From positions 1-64,000 of the forward strand of contig NZ_JAMCCQ010000004.1 in the NCBI RefSeq assembly GCF_023370775.1: a stretch of 64,000 nt of DNA, read 5' to 3'. The first letter of the stretch is position 1. The number at the start of each line of letters is the position of its first letter. Below are positions 280 through 18,580 of this stretch, piece by piece. The notes under the pieces were generated by a model. It worked only from the letters and a program-made list of their open reading frames with translations. It did not search any database and had not been told where the DNA came from. The translations under genes were made by a program, and so were the position numbers. Source of the DNA: Marivita sp. GX14005 (GTDB lineage Bacteria > Pseudomonadota > Alphaproteobacteria > Rhodobacterales > Rhodobacteraceae).

Positions 280-281
280 AG

Positions 282-294
282 CCCCAATATGGGG
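282..294. promoter_or_regulatory. Short palindrome CCCCAATATGGGG upstream of luxI
   Basis: Five-base arms CCCCA/TGGGG flank a three-base centre, about 56 bases before the luxI start. It may be part of the promoter or an operator. No function can be assigned from sequence alone. Confidence 0.25.
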
Positions 295-349
295 ATAACC
301 GAAGTGGACGAGGGGTGCTTTACCCGAAGCATCGAAAAGGATGCCGCCG

Positions 350-1033
350 ATGTTCACACTCGTACAATCCCGCACCTACCAAAGCGACATGCCGCTGCTG
401 GAAGCGGCGTTCCGGCTTCGCAAGCGGGTGTTTCATGACCGGCTCGGCTGGGATGTGCGCGCCACCGGGGACATGGAGTTCGACGCCTATGACGACAAGC
501 TTGCGCAATACCTGATATGGTGCAGCCCCGACCGGCGCAAGCTATACGGCACAATCCGGTTGCGCCCGACCAGCGCGCCGACGCTGCTCTATGACGTGTT
601 CGGCGCGACACATGGTCATACGCCGACGCTGCGCGGCGACACGATCCTCGAAGGCACGCGGATGTGCATCGACGAGGCTGCGATCGCCCGCGATTTTCCG
701 ACGCTCGATGCGGGCGCCGGGTTCAACCAGCTCTTTCTGGCGCTTTGCGAGGTCGGTTTGGCCATCGGCGCAACGCGCATGGTGTCGAATTTCGAACCCG
801 GGATGAGCCGCCTCTACCGCCGCGCGGGGCTGGATTGCGTGCTGCACGGGGAAGCCGATGGATATGGCAAGCGTCCCGTGCGCTGCGCGTCGTTCGAAGT
901 GTCCATGCCGGTGCTTGCGCAAATGCGCCGGACCATCGGCATAGACCTGCCCATCGCGACCCTGCCGCGTGGCTTTTGCCGACTGCCGACACCCACCGCT
1001 TCGGCGCCGCCCGCCCTGGCCGCCCGCGCCTGA
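350..1033 (+). CDS. LuxI-family acyl-homoserine lactone synthase
   Basis: 227 residues. The enzyme makes an N-acyl-homoserine lactone signal from S-adenosylmethionine and an acyl donor. With the ATG at 350, every classical LuxI invariant residue falls at its canonical number: R24, F28, W34, D45, D48, R70, F84, E101 and R104. This fixes the start and argues the enzyme is active. An upstream in-frame ATG at 341 touches the AAAAGG ribosome site (335-340), whereas 350 has a nine-base spacing. The C-terminal 35 residues are Pro/Ala-rich and probably disordered. The gene is followed closely by a small unknown gene and then by a convergent luxR-type gene. Which acyl chain it uses cannot be told from sequence. 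Confidence 0.95.
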   Translation: MFTLVQSRTYQSDMPLLEAAFRLRKRVFHDRLGWDVRATGDMEFDAYDDKLAQYLIWCSPDRRKLYGTIRLRPTSAPTLLYDVFGATHGHTPTLRGDTILEGTRMCIDEAAIARDFPTLDAGAGFNQLFLALCEVGLAIGATRMVSNFEPGMSRLYRRAGLDCVLHGEADGYGKRPVRCASFEVSMPVLAQMRRTIGIDLPIATLPRGFCRLPTPTASAPPALAARA

Positions 1034-1058
1034 CGGGCGTTGGTAACGAGTGATCGCA

Positions 1059-1607
1059 ATGTCTGTGCTCCATCCTTATCCGCTCGGGCTATTCCTGCAC
1101 GCCCATATCAACGGCGCCGCCGAAGCCGAGAGATGCCTTGGGATGATCGAACGGCTGCTTCTGCGCGCGCCGGCGGACGCGCTGCTCTTGGGGAGCAAAT
1201 CCGCGCTGATGCTCATCGTGCAGGGCGATAGCGGCCTGCCTCGCAACGATCCGGTCTACCGGCGCAATGCGCTGGCTCTGGCCCGGGCCGCGCTGCGAAA
1301 GGCCGGGCCGGCCACGGCGCTACGGGTGCGTGTCATCAATGGTCTGGCCTGGGCCCGGCTTGGCCCGCACAGGGCCGAAAGGCAGACTGCGCTTGGGTTC
1401 CTGCAAGCGCTGGAGCGGCCCTATGCGCCGCGCGACCTGCCTCAGTTGATCGAGATTGACGGGCTGGCCGCCCTCGCGGCGCTCTATCATGAAGAAGGCC
1501 GGTGGCCGGAGAGTGCGGGTTGCTACCGCCGGGCCTCGCGGATCGACCGGCTATTGGCGCGCCTGCGCTATGCCGCGTTGCGCGTCGCCCGGCAGGACGC
1601 ACCATAG
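1059..1607 (+). CDS. Uncharacterised helical (TPR-like) protein downstream of luxI
   Basis: About 182 residues, with no recognised catalytic motif. The sequence is Ala/Leu/Arg-rich and predicted helical. It has tetratricopeptide-like stretches, for example around AAERCLGMIERLLL-type helices and the C-terminal LAALYHEEGRWPESAGCYRRA, the last resembling a single TPR unit. A GTG at 1050 in frame is an alternative start, giving 185 residues. It begins 25 bases after luxI and very likely shares its transcript; it converges on luxR with a three-base gap. A role in the signalling circuit is possible but unsupported. It has no signal peptide or membrane segment. Confidence 0.6.
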   Translation: MSVLHPYPLGLFLHAHINGAAEAERCLGMIERLLLRAPADALLLGSKSALMLIVQGDSGLPRNDPVYRRNALALARAALRKAGPATALRVRVINGLAWARLGPHRAERQTALGFLQALERPYAPRDLPQLIEIDGLAALAALYHEEGRWPESAGCYRRASRIDRLLARLRYAALRVARQDAP

Positions 1608-1610
1608 GCG

Positions 1611-2315
1611 TCAGATGATGCGCAGGCGAACGGCCTTGGCGACCGCTTGCGCCAGCGAAACGCAATCCAGCTTGATCCGCGCAAGTTTGAGATAGCTGCG
1701 CACCGTATGATCCGACAGCGACAGGATGATGGCGATTTCGGAATAGGATTTGCCCTCCGAGGATAAGCGCAGACATTCGTATTCCCGCCGCGTTAACACC
1801 GGCGCGCCGCTGGTTTCCGACGTCGCCTCGGACACCGCCTTGGAGTGCAGGATCGGCAGCATGGTTTCAAACTGGTCCACCAGCGGCGTGATGTAGCGTA
1901 TCCACGCCGCCTGTTCCATTCCGGAGTTGAGGCTGAACACCCCGCGCCGCCCCCGGCGGTCCTCGTAGACGAAACTGTAGCCCGACGCACCGATCCCGAA
2001 CCGCGCGGCGGCCTTGAACATCATCCGCGTATTGGCCGAAGGCTCCAGCTCATGCCAGCCGAAGGAGTCCCCTTCGCTCAGCGCGCGCTCCAGGATCGGG
2101 TCGATTCCGGCGTAGTTGTTGAGCAGGTAATGCGTGACCCAGGCATCGGGGTAGGTCGTCCGCACGAACGGATTGTCGAGCTTTTCGGCGGGGTTCACCA
2201 GCAGGTGAAACGTGGTGAAGTCGTGGTCATAGGCATCTTGGACGATCCTAATCGCATCGCGCGTGGAATTGGACGCGACGATCGCATCGAGGATCTTGTC
2301 GAAGACAAAAGACAT
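1611..2315 (-). CDS. LuxR-family quorum-sensing transcriptional regulator
   Basis: 234 residues: an N-terminal autoinducer-binding domain (about 1-160) and a C-terminal LuxR-type helix-turn-helix (about 170-230). Ligand-pocket residues of the TraR/LuxR family are present: W59, Y63, D72 and W87. The HTH shows the family signature TRREYECL followed by EGKSYSEIA. It is convergent with luxI-orf182 and divergent from the ribB operon, with a 214-base shared intergenic region. The obvious reading is a cognate receptor for the LuxI product that acts on luxI and the divergent operon. Whether it activates or represses cannot be seen. Confidence 0.93.
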   Translation of the reverse strand: MSFVFDKILDAIVASNSTRDAIRIVQDAYDHDFTTFHLLVNPAEKLDNPFVRTTYPDAWVTHYLLNNYAGIDPILERALSEGDSFGWHELEPSANTRMMFKAAARFGIGASGYSFVYEDRRGRRGVFSLNSGMEQAAWIRYITPLVDQFETMLPILHSKAVSEATSETSGAPVLTRREYECLRLSSEGKSYSEIAIILSLSDHTVRSYLKLARIKLDCVSLAQAVAKAVRLRII

Positions 2316-2387
2316 GATGATGGGCTTTCCGCAAATCAGGGTTGAGCTCGCGCCGGTTTACCAAGGGTAAAGTGGGAAATTCAGAAA

Positions 2388-2408
2388 GCGGGCGGCAGTA
2401 TCCCGCCG
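2388..2408. other. GC-rich hairpin in the luxR-ribB intergenic region
   Basis: CGGGCGG followed closely by CCCGCCG forms a short stem upstream of ribB. No RFN (FMN riboswitch) consensus could be aligned around it, so it is reported only as a structure that may affect either divergent transcript. Confidence 0.25.
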
Positions 2409-2416
2409 AAGTCAAT

Positions 2417-2426
2417 CCCACAATTG
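2417..2426. promoter_or_regulatory. CCCACAATTG motif in the luxR-ribB intergenic region
   Basis: This ten-base word is identical to positions 253-262 upstream of luxI. It sits near the middle of the divergent intergenic region, about 102 bases from the luxR start and 104 bases before the ribB start. Here the palindrome is only half kept (CAATTG is symmetric, the flank is not). It is a candidate binding site for the LuxR-type regulator of this locus. Confidence 0.35.
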
Positions 2427-2529
2427 CGAACCTCGATTTCGACACCACCGACGGGGGGATACCGGGACTGTGGGGCTCGGGGCATGCTTTTTTCGGATAG
2501 TCACGATAACTCCCGAAAGGATCACCTCC

Positions 2530-3183
2530 GTGCTCGATATTCTATCGCTAGACCGAACCAAGCTCATCGAACAGGCCATCGAGGATTTCAGGAAGGGCAA
2601 GTTCCTTCTCGTGTCCGATGACGAGGACCGCGAGAACGAGGGCGATCTCGTCATCGCCGCCGAACACGCGACGCCTGAGGCAATCAACTTCATGATCACC
2701 GAAGGCAAGGGACTCGTCTGCCTGACCGTCTCCGAAGAGATCGCGCGTCAGAAGGGGCTTGCCCCGATGGTGGAGCGCAATGGCGATCACCTCGGCACTG
2801 CGTTTACCGCCAGTGTCGATGCGACCCCAGCGCAAGGCGTGACCACCGGGATTTCCGCGCATGACCGCGCCAAGACAATCGAGGTCGTCATCGACAGCCA
2901 ATATGGCCCCGAGGATCTTCAGGCGCCTGGCCACATGTTTCCGCTGGTCGCCAAGGCGGGTTATCTCAAGGCCCGGCGCGGCCATACTGAAGCGGGTGCG
3001 GAGCTGTGCCGTCTCGCGGGGCTGAAGCACGATGCGGCCGTCATCGTCGAGGTGATCCGTCAGGACGGGGAAATGGCCCGCCGGCCCGAGCTTTTGGCGA
3101 TGGCCGAGAAATTCGGTATTACCTATGTCACCATCGACGATCTCTGCAAATACGTCGCTCAACTCGAACTCGAGCCGGCGTAA
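2530..3183 (+). CDS. ribB: 3,4-dihydroxy-2-butanone 4-phosphate synthase
   Basis: 217 residues from a GTG start at 2530, which has AAAGGA eight bases upstream; an ATG at 2470 is in frame but has no ribosome site. RibB converts ribulose 5-phosphate to the four-carbon riboflavin precursor plus formate. The acidic loop DDEDRENEGDL, the GKGLVCL segment and the GVTTGISAHDRA and APGHMFPL stretches of the active site are all present. The protein ends where stand-alone RibB proteins end, with no GTP cyclohydrolase II domain. As first gene of a quorum-sensing-linked operon it is out of its usual rib context, so it may supply flavin for the nitroreductase-like enzyme or a C4 building block. Both roles are inference. 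Confidence 0.93.
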   Translation: MLDILSLDRTKLIEQAIEDFRKGKFLLVSDDEDRENEGDLVIAAEHATPEAINFMITEGKGLVCLTVSEEIARQKGLAPMVERNGDHLGTAFTASVDATPAQGVTTGISAHDRAKTIEVVIDSQYGPEDLQAPGHMFPLVAKAGYLKARRGHTEAGAELCRLAGLKHDAAVIVEVIRQDGEMARRPELLAMAEKFGITYVTIDDLCKYVAQLELEPA

Positions 3184-3188
3184 GCGGG

Positions 3189-5912
3189 ATGACATCGCCG
3201 ATGACCTCTCCCACCACCGGCGATGCCAGCCGCATCGCCCGTCAGGCGCAAGCGGTGTTCCGCCGCTTGTTCCTGTCGTGGCTCGACGGCAAGCTGATCA
3301 CACATCTCGATCACTTCGAGGGCTCCGAGCACCTGCCCGAGCGTGGGCCGGTGATCCTGGTTCCCAACCATGAAAGCTATTTCGACGGGTTCGCGATCAC
3401 CGCGCTTATGTGGAAGATCGCGGGGCGCCACGTGCGTATTCCCACGAACGTAAAGGCGCTGGGAAATCCGTTCGTCGCGTTCTGCCAGACTGCCGGCGGC
3501 GCGGTGCCGATCGACCCTGCGGATCGGGAACAGACCTATGCCCGCCTTTCCGCGCTGCTGGAACGGGGCGAAGCGGTTGTTCTTTTCCCTGAGGGCACGC
3601 GATCAGACGGAACCGCAATGCACCCGTTCAAGCTCGGTGCGTTCAATCTCGCGGTGGCGCATGGCGTTCCCATCCTGCCGGTCGCGCTGCGCGGGTTTGC
3701 GGGGATACTGCCCAAGGGCCAACTGCGCTTTCGTCGCGGAGCGAGGGGCGGCCTTGTCTTCGGCCCGCCTGTCGATCCTGCCGATTCGCGTTTTGCCGGA
3801 CGCGATGCGCAGGAAACGGCGCGCCACCTGCGCGCGCATGTGCGCGGCTGGCTGGAAGAGGCTGCGCTGGATCCCCCGGCGGTAGAGCGGAAGACGCGGG
3901 AGATCGCTGCCCTCGCGCGCCGCGCCGATGTCGCTCTGGAAGCGCTGCTTGACGGCAATGCCGAACTCATCACGCGCCGCGATGCCGCCCGCGTGCGCCG
4001 GATCGTCTCGGCTTGCGCCATTCTGGGCCAGTTTAGCTTCGATCTCGATCTGCAGGATGTGCGCGCGCAGGGGTTCCAGCTTGCCGATCTGCCGCCGTAT
4101 CGCGCAGTCTTCGCTCTGCCGCGCTACCGCGCGCGCCTGTCCGCCTTGCTGCGACAGCGCGAAAACCATTCTTATCTCAACTACTGCGCCGGATTGCTTC
4201 AACTCAGGCTGCCCCGACTGCTCGGCGGCGGCGATGCGCAAGAGGCTTTGCGCCGGTTCAAGGCCGCGCATGATGCCGCCGCGCGAGACGGCTACCCGCA
4301 AGCGCGGTTCGCGCACGGGCTTGCCACCGCCCTTGCCCGGACGGGTGCACGCAAACACGCCATCGCGCTTTTGCAGGACACATTCGACGGCCCCCAGACA
4401 ATCAACGGCCCGCGCGCCTTAAGGCGGCGGGAAAGAGGAATGGCACTGATGAGCAAATTGCAGCGATCCGACCCGAGCACACCCGATCTGCCCAGCCGGC
4501 CGCTGCGCGGCTTCGAACTGGTCATGGCGCAAACGCGCATCTCCGATATCATCGTCGGGCAAATCGAGGGCGTTCTTGATTTCGCGCAGGTCTTCGACGC
4601 GGCAAGCGCGCTGCAACAGCGCCACCCCGGATTGCGCGCCCGTGTCGTGTGGCCAGAAGGGCGCGATGCGCGGTCGGTCTTCGAATACCTTCCAGCCGAT
4701 CAGACCCGGCTCCATGTGACAGAAGCCCGCCCGCCAAAGGGCGCGCGGCCCGTTGACCGGCCATTCTGGCAAGAAGTGGCCGAGCGCGAGGTCAACCATC
4801 TCTTCGATCTGTCGGATGGCTACATGTTTCGCGTCACCTGGCTGCCCGAAAGCGGGCATGTCATTTTGAACGCGCAGCATTCCGTGATTGACGGCGTGTC
4901 GCTGATGCGCCTGCTGCACGATTTCGCACGACACTGCGCCGGTCAGGAGCTTGGCCCCAACCTGCCGCCGACGCCGCCCGCGCTGCGAAGCGCGCCGAAG
5001 CTGTCGTTGCTGGAAAAGGCGGTCGGCTTGGTGCACCGCGAGAGTTTCCTGCGGGCGCGCAGCCGTTTTGCCGAATGGTCTCCGCTTCCAATCGCCGGGC
5101 GGCTTGAAAAGGGCGAGACCCCCGCGACCGAGTGCTATTTCGCCGAAGGCGATAGCGCGTCCTTCGATGCGATCACTGCCGCCTGCCATGCGCATGGCGT
5201 CACGGTCGGCGGTGCATATGCGGCAGCGATCCAATGTGCGATGCTCCATATTTCCGGCGCATCCTTCGGGGGAAAACAGAAATATTACGTCCCCATGGAT
5301 TTCAGCCTGCGTCGTTTCATCGCCGGAGCGGATGCGGCGCAGGAGGCGGTCGGGCTTTTTTCCGGCGTTGCGCCGGTGATCTTCGACGGTGATCCGTCAG
5401 CCAGCTTCTGGGAGCTTGCGGCAAGCTTCACCGAAACCTCGCGGGGCGAGATCAAGCACAAGTCGCCGGTGATCTTTCATCAGGTGTTCGACCGCTTCTT
5501 CAACCTCGAAAAGGCCTACGCCAGATACCGGCTCGGGCGAGAGGACGGCGGGGGCGCGGGCGGGCCGCTGACCATGAGCAATGTGGGCAAGTTTCCCTTC
5601 CCGCCGCAAACCGGCGCAGTGCGGATCAACGCGGTGCACGGGATGAGCGCGTCGCAAAAGGGCGGCTCGATGCTCTACTTCTGGCTGCGGTCGGTGAACG
5701 GGCGGCTATTCTATAGCGCCACCTCGATGGCCCCCGCTGCCACGCGGGATTTCGGTGCCGCGTTTTTCGACCTCGTGGTGTTCCTGATGGAGCGCAGCAC
5801 GGGTGCCGATGCATCGAACCTTCCGCTGCGCGACTATATCCCGCGCGCCGCCGCTGAGCATCGCGCCAAGGCGAATACTCGCCTTGTGCCCGAACCCGAA
5901 CCGGTGGTCTGA
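3189..5912 (+). CDS. PlsC-type acyltransferase fused to a condensation/PapA-like acyltransferase domain
   Basis: 907 residues. The N-terminal 1-230 is a 1-acylglycerol-3-phosphate acyltransferase (PlsC) domain with the HX4D pair H61/D66 in NHESYFDG and the substrate motif FPEGTRS (E135-R138). A helical linker of about 200 residues follows. The C-terminal half (about 440-880) resembles condensation, WS/DGAT or PapA acyltransferases, with HxxxDG at H564-G569 and a later YVPMDFSLR segment. The frame runs unbroken, so this is one protein, though a ribosome-site-like AAAGAGG near 4430 could allow internal initiation. It starts five bases after ribB. It probably transfers acyl groups twice or joins two acyl acceptors. 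No substrate can be assigned. Confidence 0.82.
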   Translation: MTSPMTSPTTGDASRIARQAQAVFRRLFLSWLDGKLITHLDHFEGSEHLPERGPVILVPNHESYFDGFAITALMWKIAGRHVRIPTNVKALGNPFVAFCQTAGGAVPIDPADREQTYARLSALLERGEAVVLFPEGTRSDGTAMHPFKLGAFNLAVAHGVPILPVALRGFAGILPKGQLRFRRGARGGLVFGPPVDPADSRFAGRDAQETARHLRAHVRGWLEEAALDPPAVERKTREIAALARRADVALEALLDGNAELITRRDAARVRRIVSACAILGQFSFDLDLQDVRAQGFQLADLPPYRAVFALPRYRARLSALLRQRENHSYLNYCAGLLQLRLPRLLGGGDAQEALRRFKAAHDAAARDGYPQARFAHGLATALARTGARKHAIALLQDTFDGPQTINGPRALRRRERGMALMSKLQRSDPSTPDLPSRPLRGFELVMAQTRISDIIVGQIEGVLDFAQVFDAASALQQRHPGLRARVVWPEGRDARSVFEYLPADQTRLHVTEARPPKGARPVDRPFWQEVAEREVNHLFDLSDGYMFRVTWLPESGHVILNAQHSVIDGVSLMRLLHDFARHCAGQELGPNLPPTPPALRSAPKLSLLEKAVGLVHRESFLRARSRFAEWSPLPIAGRLEKGETPATECYFAEGDSASFDAITAACHAHGVTVGGAYAAAIQCAMLHISGASFGGKQKYYVPMDFSLRRFIAGADAAQEAVGLFSGVAPVIFDGDPSASFWELAASFTETSRGEIKHKSPVIFHQVFDRFFNLEKAYARYRLGREDGGGAGGPLTMSNVGKFPFPPQTGAVRINAVHGMSASQKGGSMLYFWLRSVNGRLFYSATSMAPAATRDFGAAFFDLVVFLMERSTGADASNLPLRDYIPRAAAEHRAKANTRLVPEPEPVV

Positions 5913-5913
5913 C

Positions 5914-7479
5914 ATGGCGCTGCATGACGATCTTCGCCGCGCCGCGCGCGATTTTCCGGAGCAAGCCGCGCTTGAGTTCGAAGGCGCGACAATCACCTAC
6001 GGCGCGCTTCACGCGCAAGCGCAGGCAGTTGCGGCGGGGTTGCAGGGCAGAGGGCATCGACGGGGCTGCGCCATTGCGATCATGCTGCCGAATTGCCCCG
6101 AATTCATTGCCATTGCCTGCGGGGCGTTTACCGCCGGCCATGTCGCCACGCCGCTGAGCGTCCTGCTGACTCCGTTCGAGGCCAGGCACATCCTGCGCGA
6201 CAGCGCGCCGGAGGTTCTGTTCGTCGATGCCGTGCTGGTGCCGGTGATCGAGGCGGCGATGGTCGATCTTGACCGGACACCGGACCTTGTGGTTCTCGGC
6301 GGCGATGCCGGGGCGCATACGGATTTCGGCGCGTTCCTGGCATCTTGCGCGACCGCAACGCCCCTGACCATCGCGCCGGACGATCATCTTCTGACGCTCT
6401 ACACCTCCGGAACGACCGGGCCGGCCAAGGGGGTGATGCTGTCACCGGCCTGTCTGCGCGCGCAGGTCGATATGATTCTCGGCACCTTCAAGCCGGGGCC
6501 GGATACGCGTATCCTTTGCGCGTTGCCACTCTTTCACGCCTACGCGCTCAATGCGCTTGTCGGCACAGCCTTTCGCACCCGCGCAACCATCGTTCTGCAC
6601 CCTCGCTTCGACGCCGCCGCCTGTGCACGCAGTCTTGCGCAGGGCGGCATCACCTGGTTCGCCGGCGTGCCGACCATGTATGCGCTGCTGCTCGAGGAGG
6701 GCGACAGGCGCCCCGGTCTGCGCTTTCCCGATCTCGACATCTGTCTTGCCGGCGGCGCGGCGATGAGTTCTGCGGTGCTGAGCGGGTTCGAGCGGCGCTT
6801 CGGGCCTGCGATCCTCGAAGGCTACGGGCTCACCGAAACGACGGTGAGCGTTGCCAGCAATGCCGCCGCACCCGACGGGCGCAAGCCCGGTTCGGTCGGG
6901 CGTCCCTATGCAGGGATCGAGGCGCGCGCCATCGACAAGGCGGGCCGAACCCTGCCGGCCGGCACCACCGGAGAGCTCGTCTTTCGCGGCGCGAATGTCA
7001 TGCTCGGTTATCTGAACCGGCCCGATGACACGGCGCAGGTGCTCGAGGATGGCTGGCTGCGTAGCGGCGATCTGGGCCATGTCGATGCCGATGGATTCTG
7101 CTTCATCGCCGGGCGGCTCAAGGACCTGATCGTCAAGAGCGGCTACAATATCGTTCCGTCCGAAGTCGAGACAGCGATCCGGTGCGCCGGGCTGGTGCGT
7201 GATGCGGCGGTGCTCGGCCTGCCCGATCCGGTGCGCGGGGAACGTATCCTGGCCGCCGTGATCCTGAAGGACGGGGCCGATCCGGCGCTCGCCCGCCGCC
7301 AGATCGACGCCGCAGTGAAGGCGCGGCTGTCTCGCTACAAACACCCCTCCGCGGTCTGGTTCATCGACCGTTTTCCGCTTGGCCCGTCGGGCAAGATCCT
7401 CAAACCGATCCTCCGCGACACATGGCTTGCCACGTCCGACACCAGAAAGGATGACGTCTATGCGCCCGTCCCCGCTTGA
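5914..7479 (+). CDS. Acyl-CoA/acyl-AMP ligase (ANL superfamily)
   Basis: 521 residues. The ATP-binding signature YTSGTTGPAKGV, the GYGLTET motif, the RSGDLGHVDADGFCFIAGR hinge region and a C-terminal PSGKILK with the catalytic lysine are all intact. Such enzymes activate a carboxylate with ATP and hand it to CoA or another acceptor. No carrier protein is encoded in the operon, so CoA is the likelier acceptor. It follows the acyltransferase fusion by a single base and overlaps the next gene by 20 bases. It is plausibly the source of activated acyl units for the acyltransferase or for the alpha-oxoamine synthase. Confidence 0.88.
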   Translation: MALHDDLRRAARDFPEQAALEFEGATITYGALHAQAQAVAAGLQGRGHRRGCAIAIMLPNCPEFIAIACGAFTAGHVATPLSVLLTPFEARHILRDSAPEVLFVDAVLVPVIEAAMVDLDRTPDLVVLGGDAGAHTDFGAFLASCATATPLTIAPDDHLLTLYTSGTTGPAKGVMLSPACLRAQVDMILGTFKPGPDTRILCALPLFHAYALNALVGTAFRTRATIVLHPRFDAAACARSLAQGGITWFAGVPTMYALLLEEGDRRPGLRFPDLDICLAGGAAMSSAVLSGFERRFGPAILEGYGLTETTVSVASNAAAPDGRKPGSVGRPYAGIEARAIDKAGRTLPAGTTGELVFRGANVMLGYLNRPDDTAQVLEDGWLRSGDLGHVDADGFCFIAGRLKDLIVKSGYNIVPSEVETAIRCAGLVRDAAVLGLPDPVRGERILAAVILKDGADPALARRQIDAAVKARLSRYKHPSAVWFIDRFPLGPSGKILKPILRDTWLATSDTRKDDVYAPVPA

Positions 7480-9820
7480 TCCGAAACGAAACATCGGCCC
7501 CGGCATCGCTGCAACTGCGATAGAGAGATTGGCGCGATACCCGAAAACCGCGCTGCTGTGCGGGCTGCTGCTGGCGATGTCCGCACTCACCGGGTTAGCG
7601 CGGCTTCAGGCCGATTTCAGCTATGCCGGCTATTTCCACAAGGACGATGCCTGGCTTCAGGAATTCGATGAATTCGAGCGGGTCTTCGGCAACGACGATT
7701 CCATCATCGTCGCGGTCGAGACACCCGGCGGGCTTTTCAACCCGGACTCCATCGCACTGCTGCATGAACTGACCGAGCGACTGTGGCAACTGCCCGATGT
7801 GATCCGCGTCGATACGCTGACCAATTACCAGCATGTCTTTGCCGAAGGCGACGAGATCATCGTCGCGCCGCTGATCGCGCCCGACGCGGCGCTGACGGCG
7901 GAGTATCTGCAGGACCGCAAGGATGTCGCCCTGTCGCATGAGACGCTGCCGGGCTATCTGGTTTCCCCGGACGGCACGATGACGATGCTGTTCGGCACGC
8001 TGCGGCCCGCCGGTGACGCGCCGCCCGATGCGGCCGAGGTCGCGAACGCCGCGCGAGCGCTCATTGCGAGCATCGATGCAAAAGGCCACGAGTTGCACCT
8101 TGTCGGCGCGCCGATGATCGTCGCCTCCTTCGCCGAGATAGCGGCAGCGGACAACGCCAGGATCATTCCGCTGCTTCTGCTCTGCGTCACCTTGTTGATG
8201 TATGCCGTGCTGCGCAGCGTGTGGTGCGTAGCATACGGCGTTGCAATCGTGGTGCTGTCGGCGGTGTCGGTGCTCGGGCTGGCCGGGTGGCTGGGCGTGC
8301 AGATGACTTCGATCACGACGGTATTGCCGCAAATCATGATCGGTGTCGCGGTCGCCGATTGCCTGCACATCCTGTCCACCTATCGGCTGGTGCAGCGCGA
8401 TATTCCCGAACGGCGCGAGGCCGCGCTCTATGCGCTGAAGAAGAACGCCTTGCCGACGCTCCTGACCACGCTGACGACTGCCATCGGGTTTCTGGGCTTC
8501 ACGCTGTCCGATATCAAGACGATTGCCGATCTGGGCCTTGCCGCCGCGGCCGGCGTGATTCTGGCCTGGGCGCTGTCCTACCTGCTGCTTGGTCCGGCGC
8601 TGTTGCTGCTGCCCTTCGGCGGGCCGCGCGCCGGCGAGCCGATGCGCCTTGCTCCCGGCGCGGCGCGGGCGATGGTCGCAGCCCTCGGACGGTATCGAAG
8701 GCCGGTTCTGGCCGGGTTCGCCGCCTTCGCGCTGCTTGGTGTCTATGCCGGGACGCGGGTTCAGGTCGATGCCGACCCGGTCGCCTATTTTTCCCAAGGA
8801 CACGAATTGCGCGACGGGGTGGAGGCCATCGACGCCGGTATCGGTTCGGCCCGCAATATCGAGATCATGATCGACGCCGGCTGCGCCGATTGTGCCAAGG
8901 CGCCCGATTTTCTGCGCCGCGTCGATACGTTCGAGCGCTGGATCGAAGGGCGCGAGGATGTGGTTCAGGTCATCTCAATCGTCGATCTGCTCAAGGCATC
9001 GCGCCGCGCGCTGCAAGGCGGGGCGCGGGAAGAATACCGTCTCGCCGACAGCCAGAGCGAGATCGCGCAGGAACTGCTGTTCTACACGATGGGTTTGCCG
9101 CAGGGGCTTTCGGTGAACAACCGCATCGCCACGGCAAACGACGCCGTGCGGCTGACCGTCATGTGGCGCGTCAGCAGCTCCTCCCGCGCACTGACCGAAA
9201 TCGCGGCGATAGAGACACGCGCCGCCGTGCTTGGCCTCGATGCCACGGTGACGGGCAAATACGCGCTCTATCAGCGGCAGGAAAGCTATGTCGTGGCATC
9301 GTTCCTGTCGTCGGTCGGGCTGGCCCTGCTCCTGATCTGCGCGGTTCTGGCGCTTGCTTTCGGCTCACTGCGGCTTGGCGCGCTGGCTCTGCTTCCGAAC
9401 CTGACACCGCTGCTCGTCGGCGGGCTTGGGCTGTGGGCTCTCGGGGCCAATCTCAATGTCGGCACGGTTCTCGTTGTCAGCATCACGCTCGGCATCGCGG
9501 TCGATGACACGGTGCATATCCTTGCCGAATACCGGCGCTTGCGCCGCAACGGGCAAGGCGCGGCCGCAGCCTTCGAAGGCGTGTTCTCGGAAACCGGGAT
9601 TGCCCTGGCTTCGACCACGCTGGTCCTGATGGCCGCCTTCGGCGTGTCGATCCTGGCGTCCTTCGCGCCCTATCAGGTGTTCGGTGTGCTGGCCGCAGCG
9701 GTGCTGCTGGTGGCGCTGATCGTCGACTGTGCGCTTCTGCCAGCGCTGCTGCTTCGCGGGGAGAGCGGGCGTCGCGCGCCGAAGCTTCGCCTGTTCGCTC
9801 GTTCGCCGGGCGCCCGGTAA
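7460..9820 (+). CDS. RND/MMPL-family exporter
   Basis: 786 residues with two repeated halves, each with one membrane helix, a large periplasmic loop and a cluster of five helices, as in MMPL/HpnN/Patched-like RND proteins. The proton-relay region appears as GVAVADCLHIL in the first half and GIAVDDTVHIL in the second. The ATG at 7460 is nine bases from AGAAAGG; an ATG at 7451 is too close to it. The start lies inside the ligase gene. Relatives move lipids such as hopanoids, mycolates or polyenes from the inner membrane. The adjacent LolA-like and beta-barrel genes support export of a hydrophobic product to the outer membrane. Confidence 0.88.
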   Translation: MRPSPLDPKRNIGPGIAATAIERLARYPKTALLCGLLLAMSALTGLARLQADFSYAGYFHKDDAWLQEFDEFERVFGNDDSIIVAVETPGGLFNPDSIALLHELTERLWQLPDVIRVDTLTNYQHVFAEGDEIIVAPLIAPDAALTAEYLQDRKDVALSHETLPGYLVSPDGTMTMLFGTLRPAGDAPPDAAEVANAARALIASIDAKGHELHLVGAPMIVASFAEIAAADNARIIPLLLLCVTLLMYAVLRSVWCVAYGVAIVVLSAVSVLGLAGWLGVQMTSITTVLPQIMIGVAVADCLHILSTYRLVQRDIPERREAALYALKKNALPTLLTTLTTAIGFLGFTLSDIKTIADLGLAAAAGVILAWALSYLLLGPALLLLPFGGPRAGEPMRLAPGAARAMVAALGRYRRPVLAGFAAFALLGVYAGTRVQVDADPVAYFSQGHELRDGVEAIDAGIGSARNIEIMIDAGCADCAKAPDFLRRVDTFERWIEGREDVVQVISIVDLLKASRRALQGGAREEYRLADSQSEIAQELLFYTMGLPQGLSVNNRIATANDAVRLTVMWRVSSSSRALTEIAAIETRAAVLGLDATVTGKYALYQRQESYVVASFLSSVGLALLLICAVLALAFGSLRLGALALLPNLTPLLVGGLGLWALGANLNVGTVLVVSITLGIAVDDTVHILAEYRRLRRNGQGAAAAFEGVFSETGIALASTTLVLMAAFGVSILASFAPYQVFGVLAAAVLLVALIVDCALLPALLLRGESGRRAPKLRLFARSPGAR

Positions 9821-9862
9821 CCCGTTTGCGCAACCACTCCCAATCAAGAAGAGGCTCTGAAA

Positions 9863-10618
9863 ATGCTCCAGGACTTGTCGAGACCCGACCCGGTGCAGAT
9901 CAACTGCGCTTCGACGCTGGAAATGCCGGCCTGTATTCCCGAAGTGGTCGATGGCGTGATGCGAAGCCGTAAATCGACCCGGGCTTTCCTGCCGCATCCG
10001 GTCAGTGCGGGCGCCGTGCGCGACATTCTCGAAATCGCCGCGCGCGCCCCGTCGGGCACGAATATCCAGCCGTGGAAAGCCTATTGGGTCGATCGGGCCG
10101 GGGTGGACAAGGTTTACGGCGCCATCGCGCAAAGTGGCATCAAGCCCGAGCGCGCGCGATGGACCGAATACCAGTATTACCCGGAGAATTTCGTCGATCC
10201 CTTCCTGTCGCGTCGCCGCGCGCTCGGTAAGGCGCTCTACAACCTGCTGGGCATCTCCAAGCGCGACATTCCGGCGATGCGGGCGCAGTTCATGCGCAAC
10301 TACAGGTTCTTCGATGCGCCGGTGGGGATCTTCGTGACCATCGATCGCGATCTTGCGGTCGGCTCCCGGCTCGATCTGGGAATGTTCATTCAGAACGTTC
10401 TGCTGGCGGCGCAAGCGCGCGGGATCGCATCCTGCCCGATTGCCGCCTTCGCACCGTTTCACACGCAGGTGCGCAGCGTTGTCGGGATCCCCGATCAGGA
10501 GATCCTCGTCTGCGGCATCGCGCTTGGCTACGCCGACCCGACGAAACCCGAAAACGCGCTGCAAACGCCGCGGGCGCGGCTGGAGGAGTGGATCACCCCT
10601 CCGCCGGCCACCGACTGA
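9863..10618 (+). CDS. Nitroreductase-family FMN-dependent oxidoreductase
   Basis: 251 residues. The FMN-binding signature near the N-terminus is RSRKSTRAF followed by APSGTNIQPW, typical of the nitroreductase family. A middle insertion (about 85-145) carries several aromatic and basic residues, as in larger members. These enzymes reduce or dehydrogenate many substrates, including nitro groups, enones and oxazolines, so the reaction is unknown. It lies 42 bases after the exporter gene in the same operon. With ribB as first gene, a link to flavin supply is attractive. It is not recognisably BluB, because the flavin-destroying context and cobalamin genes are missing. Confidence 0.85.
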   Translation: MLQDLSRPDPVQINCASTLEMPACIPEVVDGVMRSRKSTRAFLPHPVSAGAVRDILEIAARAPSGTNIQPWKAYWVDRAGVDKVYGAIAQSGIKPERARWTEYQYYPENFVDPFLSRRRALGKALYNLLGISKRDIPAMRAQFMRNYRFFDAPVGIFVTIDRDLAVGSRLDLGMFIQNVLLAAQARGIASCPIAAFAPFHTQVRSVVGIPDQEILVCGIALGYADPTKPENALQTPRARLEEWITPPPATD

Positions 10619-10656
10619 CCGTTTCCAACCTCTGCTCAACCGAAAAGGACATCATC

Positions 10657-11439
10657 ATGACCTATACCCCTTCCCGCCGCTTCATCCTTGCCGCCGGCAT
10701 TGCCGCGCTGGTAGCGCCCCGCATTGCGCTCGCCGGACCGGCGGACGCGATGCACAAGAGCCGCGAGCTGCGACGCGGGCTGACCAATTCGATGGCCGAT
10801 GTGACCATGACGATCACCGCGCAGGGCCGCGCCAGCGTGCGCAAGATGCGACAATACGTGCTGGAAACGCCCAATTCAGGCAACCAGACGATCAATGTGT
10901 TCTCCAGCCCGGCGGATGTGCAAGGCGTGTCGATACTCACCCATTCGGCGCTGAACGGAGATGACCGGCAATGGCTGTTCCTCCCGTCTGTCGGGCGGGT
11001 CAAACGCATTTCCTCGTCCAACCGCAGCGGCGCGTTTGTCGGGAGCGATTTCGCCTATGAGGACCTGTCCTCACTGGAACTGGAGAAATACGAGTTCACC
11101 GCCGCCGGAACCTCCGCTGTCGGTGGGGTGAACGCGATCGAGGTGACGTATACGCCGCGCTATTCCGGCACCGGCTATTCGGCCATCCGCTCCTATCTCG
11201 ATCCGTCGCATTACCAGCCGATCCAGAACCACTATTTCAACCGGCGCGGCGAACATATGAAGACGCTGCATCTGGGCGGATACAAATCCTATGGCGGCGG
11301 GGCGATCTGGCGGCCGCACCATCTTGTGATGACCGATCATGCCAAGGGCAGCACGACCGAAATCGTCTTTTCAGCCTTCCGGTCGAACGGAACGGCTGCG
11401 GCGAATTTCAGCGCCAACCGTTTCGAGCGGGTGAGCTGA
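10657..11439 (+). CDS. Outer-membrane lipoprotein-sorting (LolA-like) periplasmic protein
   Basis: 260 residues. The N-terminus has a twin-arginine-type signal (PSRRFILAAG, then a hydrophobic stretch, cut near ALA/GPA). The mature part matches the family found beside RND exporters, with the hallmark GSDFAYEDL and a long beta-rich region as in LolA/LolB folds. Start ATG 10657 has AAAAGGA seven bases upstream. Such proteins are thought to carry lipids or lipid-modified cargo across the periplasm. Its stop codon overlaps the start of the beta-barrel gene (TGATG), so the two are made together. A Tat rather than Sec signal suggests folding before export. Confidence 0.82.
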   Translation: MTYTPSRRFILAAGIAALVAPRIALAGPADAMHKSRELRRGLTNSMADVTMTITAQGRASVRKMRQYVLETPNSGNQTINVFSSPADVQGVSILTHSALNGDDRQWLFLPSVGRVKRISSSNRSGAFVGSDFAYEDLSSLELEKYEFTAAGTSAVGGVNAIEVTYTPRYSGTGYSAIRSYLDPSHYQPIQNHYFNRRGEHMKTLHLGGYKSYGGGAIWRPHHLVMTDHAKGSTTEIVFSAFRSNGTAAANFSANRFERVS

Positions 11440-12623
11440 TGCAACGGGCGGGCCTGCTGACCTGCGCGCTTGCGCTACATGGCGCGGCGGTGCTTCCGGC
11501 GGCGGCGCAATCCATCGATGTCGGCGGTTTCGTCGGCATCGAGGCGCTGCGTTTCGCCGATAGCGATCTGGAGCCGGACAGCATCGACAGTCTGACCGCG
11601 GAGTTACGCGCGCGCGGCGATCTGAGCGAGAGCCTGTCCTTCGATCTGCGCCTCTACGGGCGCGCGACACCAGGCGAGCCGGAGGGCAGCTATGTCGATC
11701 CGACGGTCGCCAAGCTCACCTGGCGCCGCGGCCCCTGGCAACTCGATGTCGGATACGATCTTGTATTCTGGGGCGTCGCCGAAGGGCGCAACGTGGTCAA
11801 TGTGCTCAACCAGCGCGACCAGATCCGCGATCTGTTCTTTGATCGAGGTCTCGGACAAAGCATGATTGCCGCGCGCTGGTTCGGGTCCTCCGTCACCATC
11901 GAAGCCTTTGTTCTGCCCCGCTTCGAAGAGCTCGATTTCGGGGCGGAGGGGCGGCCGTGGGGGCTTGGCCTGCCGGTGGACGGCGATGCCGCCACCTTTG
12001 AGTCCGCCAAGGGGGCCGATCACATCGATTACGCATTGCGGCTGTCGGGGGTCGCGGGTGATCTGGAATATGGCGTTTTTGCCTTCGACGGCACCCTGCG
12101 CGAGCCGCAATACCGGCTCGGCCCGCAGGGCCAAACGCTGGTCCCGCATTACCGGCTGGGCCGGCAGATCGGCGCGGAAGCGCAATACACCGCTGGCCCC
12201 GCGCTCTATAAATTCGAGGGCGTGCGGGTCTGGCCCGACAGCGATGACAGCTATTGGTCCACCATCTTCGGCGTAGAATACCTGCTGGGCGAAACCTTCG
12301 GCCAGCCTTGGGACACGTCGCTTTTCGCCGAATACTACCACGATTCGCGGCGGGACGATTCATCGGTCCTGTTCCAGAACGATCTGTTCCTCGGCACCCA
12401 GATCCGGCTGCCGGGAACGCGCGATACCGAGTTCGAGATCGGCGCAATCTTCGATCTTGAGCATGATGGCGTGATCGGATCGGTCAGTCTCAGCTCGCGG
12501 CTGACCCGCAATCTGCGCGCTTCGGCTGAATACATCTACGCTGACGCGTCCGATCCCGACGACGCGCTCTTCAATGCCCGCGACTTCGATCAGGCTTCGT
12601 TCGGGCTGGAATGGCACTTCTGA
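11439..12623 (+). CDS. Outer-membrane beta-barrel protein
   Basis: 394 residues with a Sec signal peptide (cut near AAA/QSIDVG). The mature chain has alternating hydrophobic and polar strands and many aromatic girdle residues, and it ends in an aromatic C-terminus (FGLEWHF), the BAM recognition signal of outer-membrane barrels. It resembles proteins that occur with LolA-like and MMPL genes in other proteobacteria. Translational coupling with the upstream LolA-like gene suggests that the two form the distal part of an envelope export route. The cargo is unknown. Confidence 0.8.
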   Translation: MQRAGLLTCALALHGAAVLPAAAQSIDVGGFVGIEALRFADSDLEPDSIDSLTAELRARGDLSESLSFDLRLYGRATPGEPEGSYVDPTVAKLTWRRGPWQLDVGYDLVFWGVAEGRNVVNVLNQRDQIRDLFFDRGLGQSMIAARWFGSSVTIEAFVLPRFEELDFGAEGRPWGLGLPVDGDAATFESAKGADHIDYALRLSGVAGDLEYGVFAFDGTLREPQYRLGPQGQTLVPHYRLGRQIGAEAQYTAGPALYKFEGVRVWPDSDDSYWSTIFGVEYLLGETFGQPWDTSLFAEYYHDSRRDDSSVLFQNDLFLGTQIRLPGTRDTEFEIGAIFDLEHDGVIGSVSLSSRLTRNLRASAEYIYADASDPDDALFNARDFDQASFGLEWHF

Positions 12624-12660
12624 AACTTGGCGGACTTCACCAACTGGAAAGGACAGGCAC

Positions 12661-14199
12661 ATGGCGCAACTGCAAACCCCAAAGCGGCCGGCCCCATACC
12701 GGCCCAAAGACCCGCCGCGCGAACGACGCGTCGCGATCTTCGATCTCTACGGCACTCTGATCGAGCTTGAGACCCGCTCGCTCCTGCGCGCACTGTCGCG
12801 CTACCTGAACCTGCGCATCTCGCCCGACATGCTGCGGCAATCTCTGACGCTCAGCTATCCCGACGAGAACGCCGCCATCGCGGGCTTTCTCGAACTTCTG
12901 CTGGGCCGACCGGCAACGCAGGAACAGCTGACCCATACGCGGGAGATGCTTGATGCGCATCTGGCAAAAGCCCGGCTTTATCCCGGCGTGCGTCCGCTTC
13001 TGGCGTTCCTGCGCCGGCGCGGTATGAAGCTGGCGGTGCTGTCGAATGTCGCACAGATCTTCCGCAGGCCGTTCGCCGATCTGGGGCTGGAGCAGTATTT
13101 CGACGTTGTTCACTTCTCCAGCGATACCGGCCACCGCAAGCCGGAACGCGCGGCATATCTCGGCGTTTGCACGGCGCTCGATGTTGCGCCCGGCGATTGC
13201 CTTTTCTTCGGCGATGATGCGCGCAACGATTATGACGGTCCGTTGTCGCTGGCGATGCGCCCGGTCCACATCGGCTCCGCCCCGCGCGCCGAAACGGTTG
13301 GAGCGCTTAGCGATCTGCTTTGGGTTTCGCAGACCGGGCAGACGCTGCTGCGACCCGGCCAGAAGATAAAGACGCCGCTGGGGCGGTTCACCATTTCCCG
13401 GATCGAGCCGCTGGCGGAAGATGATCTGGGGCTCTACAACATCGTCTCGCGGGTGCATGGCGTCGATGCAGGCGGCAACGCGCAGATGTGGTATGCCAAG
13501 CGGTTTCTTGACGGAGCCAGCATCCATGCTGAACTCACGGCGCATGAGTTGATGGCGCTGATCGGAATCACCGTGCCGCGCGCCTTCATCACCGACACCG
13601 AAGAACCGCTGCTCTTCACCTCGCCCGCGGAGGGCGCGCCGTGGAAGGAGGGCGATTACGATCTCTCCATCGCTGAGGAAGTCGGCGCGCAGGCGGCGGC
13701 GGCCTATATCGTCAGCAATGCCGACTGGCGCCCTCGCAACACCTTGCTTTGCTCCGAAACGGGCGTTCTGACCTGCATCGACCTTGAACATTGCCTGTTC
13801 GACCGGGTGCTGACGCTGGCCGGAACGGGGCTCGATGTGACCGACCCGGTCGCGATCGACGCTTTGGGGGTTCAAACCCCGTTTTTCACCCGCACGCGCG
13901 TTCTGTCCACCGGGGCGGTGCGTCGCGCGCGGCGCAGCTTTACCCGCAACGAAGATCGCGCAAGCCCGGAAATCCAGACCTTCATCAAGGGATGGGAGCG
14001 CACTTTCTCGCTGGCGGCACGGAACAAGCAAGCCATCGCCGACATCCTGCGCAAGCGCATGGATGCCGGGCATCTGATCATCGGCACCAAGGCGCATCGC
14101 CGCGCTTTTGCCGCCGTCGATCTTCACGATCTGCTCGAACGCATCGATCTGGGACGATCGGTCGTCTACAGCGACACCCATTGGAGCATTGCGACATGA
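12661..14199 (+). CDS. HAD-family phosphatase fused to a kinase-like domain
   Basis: 512 residues. The first ~235 form a haloacid dehalogenase-type domain with FDLYGTL (D28 is the nucleophile; the usual second Asp is Tyr, as in haloacid-dehalogenase-type members), a Ser/Asn motif (LSNVA), K at GHRKPE and a distal FFGDD. The C-terminal ~275 residues look like a PI3/4-kinase or HipA-like kinase fold: K280 in WYAKRF, a catalytic loop with D355 and N360 (NADWRPRN) and a metal-binding D374 in CIDLEH. This kinase assignment is my reading of motifs only. The gene has a good ribosome site and its stop overlaps the start of the alpha-oxoamine synthase gene, so it probably acts on that product or its precursor. 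Confidence 0.65.
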   Translation: MAQLQTPKRPAPYRPKDPPRERRVAIFDLYGTLIELETRSLLRALSRYLNLRISPDMLRQSLTLSYPDENAAIAGFLELLLGRPATQEQLTHTREMLDAHLAKARLYPGVRPLLAFLRRRGMKLAVLSNVAQIFRRPFADLGLEQYFDVVHFSSDTGHRKPERAAYLGVCTALDVAPGDCLFFGDDARNDYDGPLSLAMRPVHIGSAPRAETVGALSDLLWVSQTGQTLLRPGQKIKTPLGRFTISRIEPLAEDDLGLYNIVSRVHGVDAGGNAQMWYAKRFLDGASIHAELTAHELMALIGITVPRAFITDTEEPLLFTSPAEGAPWKEGDYDLSIAEEVGAQAAAAYIVSNADWRPRNTLLCSETGVLTCIDLEHCLFDRVLTLAGTGLDVTDPVAIDALGVQTPFFTRTRVLSTGAVRRARRSFTRNEDRASPEIQTFIKGWERTFSLAARNKQAIADILRKRMDAGHLIIGTKAHRRAFAAVDLHDLLERIDLGRSVVYSDTHWSIAT

Positions 14200-15575
14200 C
14201 CCCTTCATTCTACGACTTTCCCGACACGTTTCCCGACCGCCAGCTCCTGACGGCCGATGGCGTTCTGACCAAAGGTCAGATGCGGTATTTCAACCCCAAG
14301 TCGGATCACATCCTGAACCGCTTCGACGGGCTGGAGGGCTATCTGCGCCGCCGCCTCGAAGCGGGGGTGTTCAGCCACCGGATGCAAGTTGTCGGCGATC
14401 CCGGCACAAGGGCGACGGTCCGCGATCTGGCCGGGCGAGAATTCACAGGCATCAACCTCTCGACGGTTGATTACATGGGGCTATCCGATCACCCGAAGAT
14501 CAAGAATGCCGCGCGCCGCACGCTCGACACAAGCCGGCTCCATAGCGTCAATACTGGCCCGCTTCTGGGAAATTCGCCCGAATCCGGCGCGCTCGAGACA
14601 TGGATGGCACGGCATATGGGGCATGAGTTCGGGATGCTCTTTCCGACCGGATGGGCTGCCTCCTTCAGCGGTGTGGCCGCCCTCGCGCGGCCCGGCGACC
14701 ATGTGCTGATCGACGAATACGCGCATCAGAGCCTCAAGCAGGGCGCCAATGCCGCCTGCGACAGCGTCATCAAGTTTCGCCATCTCGACAATTCGGAGGT
14801 CGCAAACCGCCTGGTCGCACTGCGCAAGGCTGATCCCGATGCGGGCGTCCTTGTCGTTACCGAAGGGCTCTACTCAATGGATGGCGATGCGCCGGATATC
14901 CGCGAATTGCTGCAGATTTGCAAGGATCACCGCGCCGCGCTGCTGGTCGATATCTGCCACGATCTCGGCTGCACCGGTCCCCGCGGAACGGGCACGCTGG
15001 GACTGCAAGGCATTCTTGGCGATCCCGACCTGATCGTCGTCGGGGCGTTTTCGAAGGCCTTTGCGACCAATGGCGGTTTCCTGACCACGTCCAATCTGGG
15101 TGTGATCTTCGCGGCCTATTGCTTTGCCGGGCCGTATACCTATTCAACCTCACTCTCGCCGATGCAGATCTCGATCGCGCAAACGGGGCTCGAGATCGCC
15201 GCCGGCCCCGAGGGCGCTGCCCGCCGGGCCAAGCTGGAGGCGAACATCGCGGCCACGCGCGGACGGGCGGCGGAGCATGGCATCCTCGCCTATGGGGCGC
15301 CGTCGCCCATCGTGTCGCTGCATGTCGGATCGGAAAAGATCGCCCGTTTGGCCTGCGCCAGGGCATTCCGCAACGGGCTGGTGACGACGATCCTCGAATA
15401 TCCCGTCGTCTCGCGCGGCAAGGCGCGTTTTCGCCTGTCAATGAGCCCTGAACATGACGAAGCCGTGCTGATCGCCGCGGTCGATATCATTGCCGAGTCG
15501 ATCGACTGGGCGCGCGCCTATCAGGCCGAGATCGATGCAGGCGCCGATGCGTTATCGCTGGAACCTGCGGAGTAG
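14196..15575 (+). CDS. Alpha-oxoamine synthase-like PLP enzyme (AONS/SPT/CqsA class)
   Basis: 459 residues of fold-type I. The PLP lysine is K287 in GAFSKAF, and D252 and H255 in DICHDLG occupy the usual DExHxxG site. The Glu after the Asp is Ile here, which departs from KBL, AONS, SPT and ALAS. Family members condense an amino acid with an acyl-CoA and lose CO2 (or retain it) to give alpha-aminoketones, as in biotin, sphingolipid, haem or CAI-1 autoinducer synthesis. There is no other biotin gene, so a dedicated lipid or signal-like product is likelier. It is the last gene of the ribB operon, coupled to the HAD-kinase gene by ATGA. Confidence 0.82.
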   Translation: MTPSFYDFPDTFPDRQLLTADGVLTKGQMRYFNPKSDHILNRFDGLEGYLRRRLEAGVFSHRMQVVGDPGTRATVRDLAGREFTGINLSTVDYMGLSDHPKIKNAARRTLDTSRLHSVNTGPLLGNSPESGALETWMARHMGHEFGMLFPTGWAASFSGVAALARPGDHVLIDEYAHQSLKQGANAACDSVIKFRHLDNSEVANRLVALRKADPDAGVLVVTEGLYSMDGDAPDIRELLQICKDHRAALLVDICHDLGCTGPRGTGTLGLQGILGDPDLIVVGAFSKAFATNGGFLTTSNLGVIFAAYCFAGPYTYSTSLSPMQISIAQTGLEIAAGPEGAARRAKLEANIAATRGRAAEHGILAYGAPSPIVSLHVGSEKIARLACARAFRNGLVTTILEYPVVSRGKARFRLSMSPEHDEAVLIAAVDIIAESIDWARAYQAEIDAGADALSLEPAE

Positions 15576-15744
15576 TACAGGCGGGCGGCGCCACGGCGGC
15601 GTCGCTATCGCACCCGACTTTCGCGCCGGGTAACCTTCGACCCTCGGTTGGGGCGACCCTGATCGTTCTGTCATAGGCAACACAGACGTTGCGTTTATCG
15701 CAGATCGTAATCGGGTAAAGGAAACCGGTGGACACCGGACGAGG
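15576..15744. other. Spacer after the quorum-sensing-linked operon
   Basis: No gene is visible. Short GC-rich inverted repeats (for example CCCG...CGGG near 15618-15630) occur, but none has a T-run on either strand. The two flanking genes converge. Confidence 0.4.
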
Positions 15745-18562: not shown

Positions 18563-18580
18563 GGCTCGCCCCTTTCACAG

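Follow-up and report, generated by a model that had tools for sequence, protein, structure and literature searches.

Organization of the locus

The window, by which we mean the whole 64,000-nucleotide stretch analysed here, covers bases 1-64,000 of the 391,619-bp contig NZ_JAMCCQ010000004.1 in the 3.45-Mb genome of the photosynthetic bacterium Marivita sp. GX14005, and our subject is a LuxI/LuxR quorum-sensing pair and the nine-gene operon beside it. We rate it somewhat better than an even chance that they constitute a rare, mosaic cluster linked to acyl-homoserine lactone (AHL) signaling, for the synthesis and secretion of an acylated lipid whose alpha-aminoketone core derives from an alpha-oxoamine synthase (AOS). 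The presence and position of all genes named in an earlier annotation made from the letters of the sequence (the original prediction) were verified by open reading frames (ORFs) and profile scans, with "kinase" and "barrel" as the weaker calls. The features, in window coordinates, are:

253-266: candidate lux box upstream of luxI, with a 12-bp perfect palindrome, CCACAATTGTGG, at 254-265
350-1033, plus strand: luxI, LuxI-family AHL synthase (PF00765, motifs, 57% to an AHL synthase of Paracoccus alcaliphilus)
1050-1607, plus strand: small ORF separating the two lux genes, with a weak TPR score and, at E 0.004, a similar gene at the equivalent place of P. alcaliphilus locus L143
1611-2315, minus strand: luxR, autoinducer-binding regulator (PF03472 and PF00196; W...Y, DP, W pattern)
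2417-2428: second candidate lux box, conserved in part, between luxR and the operon
2530-3183, plus strand: ribB, stand-alone 3,4-dihydroxy-2-butanone-4-phosphate (DHBP) synthase
3189-5912, plus strand: fusion of a PlsC acyltransferase, a weak TPR linker, and a condensation-type acyltransferase (NHx4D, FPEGTR, HxxxDG)
5914-7479, plus strand: AMP-forming acyl-CoA ligase (profile matches; best model a long-chain one)
7451-9820, plus strand: MMPL-type RND transporter
9863-10618, plus strand: nitroreductase-family flavin mononucleotide (FMN) enzyme
10657-11439, plus strand: LolA-like periplasmic protein (PF17131)
11439-12623, plus strand: outer-membrane barrel of an RND-LolA-barrel export unit (relatives; signal-like N-terminus, terminal Phe)
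12661-14199, plus strand: HAD domain (motif I FDLYGT) with a C-terminal half without assigned domain
14196-15575, plus strand: AOS of a separate clade

As originally predicted, the operon is a tight run of nine genes on one strand (2530-15575) in which no intergenic gap exceeds 42 bp; the junctions measure, in order, 5, 1, -29, 42, 38, -1, 37, and -1 bp, the last being a 4-bp overlap if the AOS is counted from the ATG at 14196, and the genes would be co-transcribed. The lux pair had been described as directly flanking this run. Both genes do stand beside it, with two corrections: the small ORF separates luxI from luxR, and luxR is encoded on the minus strand and points away from the operon. 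Because luxI starts only 350 bp from the contig end, the region further upstream of it is not visible; downstream, the operon is followed by opposite-strand genes, NnrS and then ABC-type genes.

Profile scans matched no ketosynthase or carrier protein among the operon proteins scanned, in agreement with the view that the cluster contains neither polyketide synthase (PKS) nor nonribosomal peptide synthetase (NRPS) and is not an aryl polyene cluster. A sigma-70 promoter scan found 0 candidates (shuffle mean 3.1) and a terminator scan 9 (shuffle mean 12.3); since these counts are no better than those of shuffled sequence, neither scan is informative. No FMN riboswitch matched at the Rfam gathering threshold within 1-20,000. 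The GC content of the operon and the GC3 of its genes resemble the window GC and two measured neighboring genes, so there is no compositional sign of recent import.

Quorum-sensing cassette and candidate lux boxes

LuxI matches PF00765 at 88.4 bits and carries the RxxxF...W and E..R motifs in the expected places, while LuxR combines Autoind_bind and GerE domains with the W...Y...DP...W pattern; the LuxI motif residues are the conserved catalytic ones of AHL synthases. Domains, residues, and position all confirm the predicted LuxI/LuxR pair. Matches to LuxI occur in 722 of 72,556 plasmid records; the best is the P. alcaliphilus AHL synthase (57%), and the other eleven records listed, from Rhizobium, Phyllobacterium, Sinorhizobium, and Agrobacterium, match at ~50-52% and hold AHL synthases where annotated. 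At 68 bits against a cut-off of 250 for the curated TraI equivalog NF052393, the protein belongs to the LuxI family and is not TraI proper. It also scores just over the cut-off for the N-acyl amino acid synthase FeeM (28.8 vs 27), more weakly than for PF00765. Because the FeeM cut-off is passed and that of TraI is missed, AHL synthase is the best, not the sole, reading of LuxI.

The order luxI-small ORF-luxR recurs on a P. alcaliphilus plasmid (L143:9001-10914; 57%, E 0.004, and 49% for the three genes, respectively), where the cassette adjoins an NRPS/PKS (24.9-kb gene), an ABC transporter, and an RND pump. To judge from its sequence, this is a similar regulatory cassette with a different cargo.

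Ahead of luxI, the motif CCCACAATTG falls within the palindrome CCACAATTGTGG plus one base; a second copy stands between luxR and the operon. Genome-wide, CCCACAATTGNG has two matches, both at these two sites; by our own arithmetic, base composition alone predicts one or two, and the evidence therefore lies in the location of the matches, not in their count. Of 10,000 order-1 resamples, 4 had a 12-bp palindrome in one region with its 10-mer repeated in the other; in a set of 3,000 resamples, 449 showed a shared 10-mer alone, 476 a 12-bp palindrome, and 77 both. We regard this shared palindromic element before luxI and the operon as a candidate lux box, and the cluster is probably under AHL control.

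A portable export unit

The barrel protein has no Pfam match above cut-off and was called from its relatives, found at E<=1e-6 in 28 Pseudomonadota genomes, its own included, from a sample of 249. Loci were fetched from 20 of the 27 other barrel-bearing genomes. The RND, LolA-like, and barrel genes stand together in 18 of these loci, the remaining two stopping at contig ends, and the three gene types keep the same order, so the gene set predicted to serve export through both membranes is a genuine unit. Of the 20 loci, 16 also have a gene that we read from its sequence as TetR-like, in two clusters of 12 and 4. The Marivita unit matches these RND-LolA-barrel units of Pseudomonadota in its three gene types and their order but differs from them in lying inside a lux-linked operon, in containing the nitroreductase gene, and in having no TetR-like gene seen beside it.

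Among the other proteins of this operon, the AOS alone found matches in the fetched loci, in three of them and at 26-28% identity, with other genes in between. We rejected the idea that the AOS genes of these loci (L098, L103, and L112) are tied to the export unit: they follow parE (by our reading), with intervening genes and that low identity. The L098 and L112 enzymes also fall outside the clade of the window AOS (L103 was left out of the tree).

Three of the nine matching plasmid records are from Sulfitobacter, and in the one of these three that was fetched, pDSM110093_b, the three export gene types follow a type I PKS and galE precedes the barrel gene. In a Pseudoalteromonas plasmid, the barrel gene is divergently oriented, and the annotation names no biosynthetic gene. 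On these comparisons the export unit is real but portable. The available text of a proteomic study reports an MMPL protein with a LolA-like domain that is induced on long alkanes (PMC6304351), a parallel at the level of description, and no demonstrated cargo for the RND-LolA-barrel unit was found in our literature search within the portions of the sources available. The cluster described here would supply a cargo for this widespread unit.

A separate clade of oxoamine synthases

The AOS retains the Lys, Asp, and His positions of the pyridoxal 5'-phosphate (PLP) site, residues with established roles at the cofactor. It stays below every curated cut-off: 221.8 of 426 bits for BioF, 181.5 of 500 for serine palmitoyltransferase (SPT), 162.6 of 460 for Kbl, and 139.5 of 428 for the CqsA type (NF005526). 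Membership in BioF, Kbl, or 5-aminolevulinate synthase finds no support in these scores, all of which lie below cut-off, and assignments to sphingolipid, biotin, or CqsA enzymes were set aside on the same curated models. Within the genus (17 genomes), the best-scoring relative outside its own genome is 28% identical. Clade mates with 36-39% identity are encoded on plasmids of Pseudorhodobacter turbinis, Salipiger sp. CCB-MM3 (two copies), and Streptomyces clavuligerus, and further ones came from 239 sampled genomes (G871, G805, G818, and G844); of the eight, seven were scanned (G844 left out), and none reaches any curated cut-off. In a 22-row tree with some rows shortened, a nine-row clade stands apart from the 13 other rows with support of 100/100; the window AOS sits on a long branch, which leaves its exact place inside the clade unsure. 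The Asn of the SNDYLGL motif, which has a role in carboxylate binding, is replaced by Gln in the eight other clade rows and by Val in the window AOS; it is kept in three BioF-like rows and two paralogues from the same genome, and is Tyr in a second AOS of G818. The locus points to an uncharacterised oxoamine synthase clade, some members of which are paired with histidine kinases (see below).

The original prediction favored a sphingolipid-like or signal-lipid product. In the sphingolipid-like case, the AOS would act as SPT, the acyltransferases would N- or O-acylate the base, and the RND unit would place the lipid in the outer membrane, in line with the company of an acyl ligase (best model long-chain) and acyltransferases and with SPT as the second-best NCBIfam model of the AOS. 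We give the sphingolipid-like product little credence and do not uphold it, because the AOS falls so far short of the SPT cut-off (181.5 vs 500), and because the SNDYLGL Asn is Val here and Gln in its eight clade mates; moreover, profile scans matched no ketosphinganine reductase or known ceramide synthase among the operon proteins. An acylated, AOS-derived lipid remains our preferred reading.

Signaling is the next alternative. In Pseudorhodobacter, the AOS gene is followed by genes for a membrane histidine kinase and then a receiver protein, and at the G871 AOS a stretch of ~7 kb holds genes for two histidine kinases and a receiver-GGDEF-EAL protein. Of 10 genomes tested for the sensor part of the Pseudorhodobacter kinase, the two with a match, G871 and G805, are the two other members of the subclade, and the remaining 8 had none; among plasmids the sensor part occurs in the Pseudorhodobacter record alone, at two places, and its sole NCBIfam match is at chance level. 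A search that used the carrier genomes as positive controls did not find a sensor of this type in the genome of the window, although a different sensor would be missed. As an observation in its own right, the same-clade AOS with membrane histidine kinases and receivers (L126:14986-18366; L128/L129 of G871; G805) may be an unrecognised synthase/sensor pair of Alphaproteobacteria.

According to the available text of PMC3376566, CqsA/CqsS and LqsA/LqsS are alpha-hydroxyketone synthase/sensor pairs. The pairing in the sister subclade resembles them, although the CqsA-type model is not reached, and the window AOS is, like CqsA and LqsA in that text (PMC3376566), a PLP-dependent oxoamine synthase linked to cell-density signaling. 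The AOS might therefore make a diffusible ketone signal of the CqsA/LqsA type, with AHL turning on a further signal for the other genes to decorate or export. This explanation keeps some weight because the sister subclade goes with histidine kinases, by adjacency in Pseudorhodobacter and G871 and by shared genome in G805, and because the Pseudorhodobacter sensor part was restricted to subclade members among the 10 tested genomes. We still judge it unlikely: the window AOS lies far under the CqsA-type cut-off (139.5 vs 428), it stands beside LuxI/LuxR with extra acyltransferases and an exporter, and the genome yielded no sister-clade-type sensor, CqsS and LqsS themselves being outside that search. 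Two acyltransferase domains and a three-part exporter would also exceed the needs of a small diffusible ketone. It is tempting to speculate that the clade, with Gln (here Val) for the SNDYLGL Asn, is an unrecognised family of ketone-signal synthases with histidine kinases of their own elsewhere in Alphaproteobacteria, and that in Marivita a receptor-less, AHL-switched member came to be linked with acylating enzymes and an exporter, a signal synthase turned into the core of a secreted lipid; we consider this a long shot.

G818 offers a comparison for the preferred reading. A 12.3-kb contig of this genome (L132, G818:C146) encodes a same-clade AOS fused to a cyclic-nucleotide-binding-like domain, which precedes an acyl ligase-acyl carrier protein (ACP)-ketosynthase-ACP-AOS protein, a GNAT protein, an RND transporter, and a LolA-like protein, the domain names being our reading of the sequence apart from BLAST matches. 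The two loci share the AOS clade, acyl activation, and RND with LolA; the G818 locus differs in its carrier-protein-bound PKS route, its RND and LolA proteins are only ~25% identical, and the contig is cut. The contig thus holds another cluster built around an AOS, with an exporter of similar type. A further comparison is with the pair of pimeloyl-CoA synthetase and 8-amino-7-oxononanoate synthase, BioW-BioF, in which an acyl ligase likewise feeds an oxoamine synthase, as described in the available part of PMC9544090, but the window AOS is under the BioF cut-off and acyltransferases and export are added. Separately, a Salipiger plasmid (L125:896-16224) carries two same-clade AOS genes, one with a HAD hydrolase gene ~1.2 kb downstream and the other just after a LuxR-type HTH gene.

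Other enzymes of the operon

RibB scores above its curated cut-off, and the genome holds a second DHBP synthase domain on another contig, in a 396-aa frame. The likeliest role of the extra copy is to boost the flavin supply of the FMN enzyme. A precedent is offered by luciferase operons with a neighboring ribB, on which our literature search gave no detail. In a still more speculative variant of the signal-synthase scenario above, DHBP from the extra RibB would serve as a building block and not as a flavin precursor.

In agreement with the original prediction, an acyl ligase, an AOS with its PLP residues, and two acyltransferase domains with their motifs are present, the PlsC half of the fusion containing NHx4D and FPEGTR and the condensation half HxxxDG. 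The predicted HAD-kinase fusion stands in its HAD half, which has a profile match and motif I. Its kinase half found no profile support: the C-terminal half of 12661-14199 has no match in Pfam (E<=10), among relevant PDB sequences, or in NCBIfam, and the kinase label goes back to a D-x4-N...D-x-E pattern.

The nearest PDB sequences of the nitroreductase are 3gr3 (5.8e-57), 7dp0, and NfnB, with Acg at only E 6e-4; its best NCBIfam model is the Acg family, at 40.6 of 199 bits and thus far under cut-off. As given in the available text of PMC10404671, flavin-dependent oxidases of the tyz pathway desaturate acyl amino acids. The acyl-oxazolone pathways tyz and oxz resemble the Marivita cluster in combining an acyltransferase with a nitroreductase-superfamily enzyme to make an acylated amino-acid lipid, and mmpL9 lies close to tyz (PMC10404671, same text). 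Here, by contrast, no ThiF cyclase was matched, an AOS takes the place of N-acylation, and Acg is a more distant relative of the nitroreductase than 3gr3, 7dp0, and NfnB are. We therefore set aside membership in the flavin-dependent oxidases (TyzC, OxzB, Acg) on the ranking of PDB sequences and with no ThiF match in the operon, TyzC and OxzB sequences being outside this comparison; by sequence, the enzyme is not a clear member of the tyz-type group.

A model for the cluster

Altogether, these data are consistent with a model in which cell density would control an AOS-derived lipid together with a dedicated two-membrane exporter from one compact cluster. At high density, AHL made by LuxI would act with LuxR on the shared palindromic sites and turn on luxI and the operon. 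The acyl ligase would then generate acyl-CoA, which the AOS, as its class and residues suggest, would condense with an amino acid to an alpha-aminoketone. The FMN nitroreductase-type enzyme may alter the redox state of this aminoketone, with the extra ribB raising the flavin supply; the PlsC and condensation domains, with their motifs in place, would attach one or two acyl groups; and the HAD protein may act on an intermediate, the order of these reactions being part of the proposal. Finally, the RND pump, the LolA-like carrier, and the barrel would carry the hydrophobic product across the inner membrane, the periplasm, and the outer membrane.

We favor this model because nine tightly spaced same-strand genes encode proteins with the expected motifs (LuxI, LuxR, RibB, PlsC, condensation, and AOS) and the shared promoter element arose in only 4 of 10,000 resamples; because the export unit recurs, in Sulfitobacter beside a type I PKS, and the G818 contig again unites AOS, ligase, RND, and LolA; and because the luxI-ORF-luxR cassette lies beside an NRPS/PKS in P. 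alcaliphilus and the genome has a DHBP synthase domain besides the operon ribB.

Several observations weigh against it. The shared lux-box motif was first spotted by eye, its one-mismatch matches in the window (3) do not exceed the 3.32 expected by chance, and no shared palindromic element was found in the Paracoccus locus L143. Motif I of the HAD protein, FDLYGT, lacks the second Asp that is usual in phosphatases, so that dephosphorylation is not assured. The export triad occurs elsewhere without the enzymes of this operon. Distribution is a further point: no second genome with the biosynthetic set appeared among those sampled (the samples overlap and are samples, not all of GTDB). Among 292 genomes of its order, the HAD protein is full-length in its own alone; partial matches occur in 224 others, all within residues 2-244 among the matches listed, and the C-terminal half has no relative in 397 of 398 genomes, its own being the exception. 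The PlsC-condensation fusion, for which the two best candidates per genome were scored, was found at E<=1e-20 in 1 of 385 genomes of the class, again its own, and at E<=1e-12 another 48 of 398 genomes of the phylum match only residues 19-246, the PlsC half.

No plasmid place covers 80% of either fusion protein, and a GTDB contig pattern scan with the PlsC-condensation protein, which detects close relatives only, returned two distant matches, to the PlsC half only. Relatives of the condensation domain are present on Rhizobium plasmids, including an unannotated R. rhododendri record; the annotated R. leguminosarum neighborhood names no further operon-like gene. From these sequence comparisons, the cluster looks rare.

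The original prediction had expected homologues of these genes to stay together and had proposed to look for co-occurrence of the PlsC-condensation and HAD fusions in other genomes. The export triad was found apart from the other operon genes, and neither fusion is full-length in any other genome sampled. The single-pathway idea itself fares unevenly: the G818 contig, which joins a same-clade AOS with ligase, RND, and LolA, speaks for it, while homologues in other company and the lack of a second genome with the set among those sampled speak against it. Chance assembly, or loose co-regulation, of the lux cassette, the export unit, and a number of lipid enzymes would account for the relatives that cassette, unit, and AOS each have in other company, and this explanation keeps some weight because several modules live elsewhere in such company. 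We think it rather improbable, given the overlaps and tight spacing across 13 kb, the nitroreductase gene within the export unit, and the repeated AOS-ligase-RND-LolA association in G818. As for the proposed AHL-controlled lipid cluster as a whole, a description of this gene set was not found in our literature search, which is not proof of its absence in print; the parts are known kinds of enzymes, and the combination is new within these searches.

Surroundings of the operon

A photosynthesis gene cluster lies ~20 kb downstream (window positions 36461-63935) and encodes an AcsF-like rubrerythrin-family protein, PuhA, BchL, BchH, two Photo_RC proteins, and a BchB/Z-type subunit, these gene names being our reading of Pfam matches. 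A HemA-like gene accompanies it at 36461-37741.

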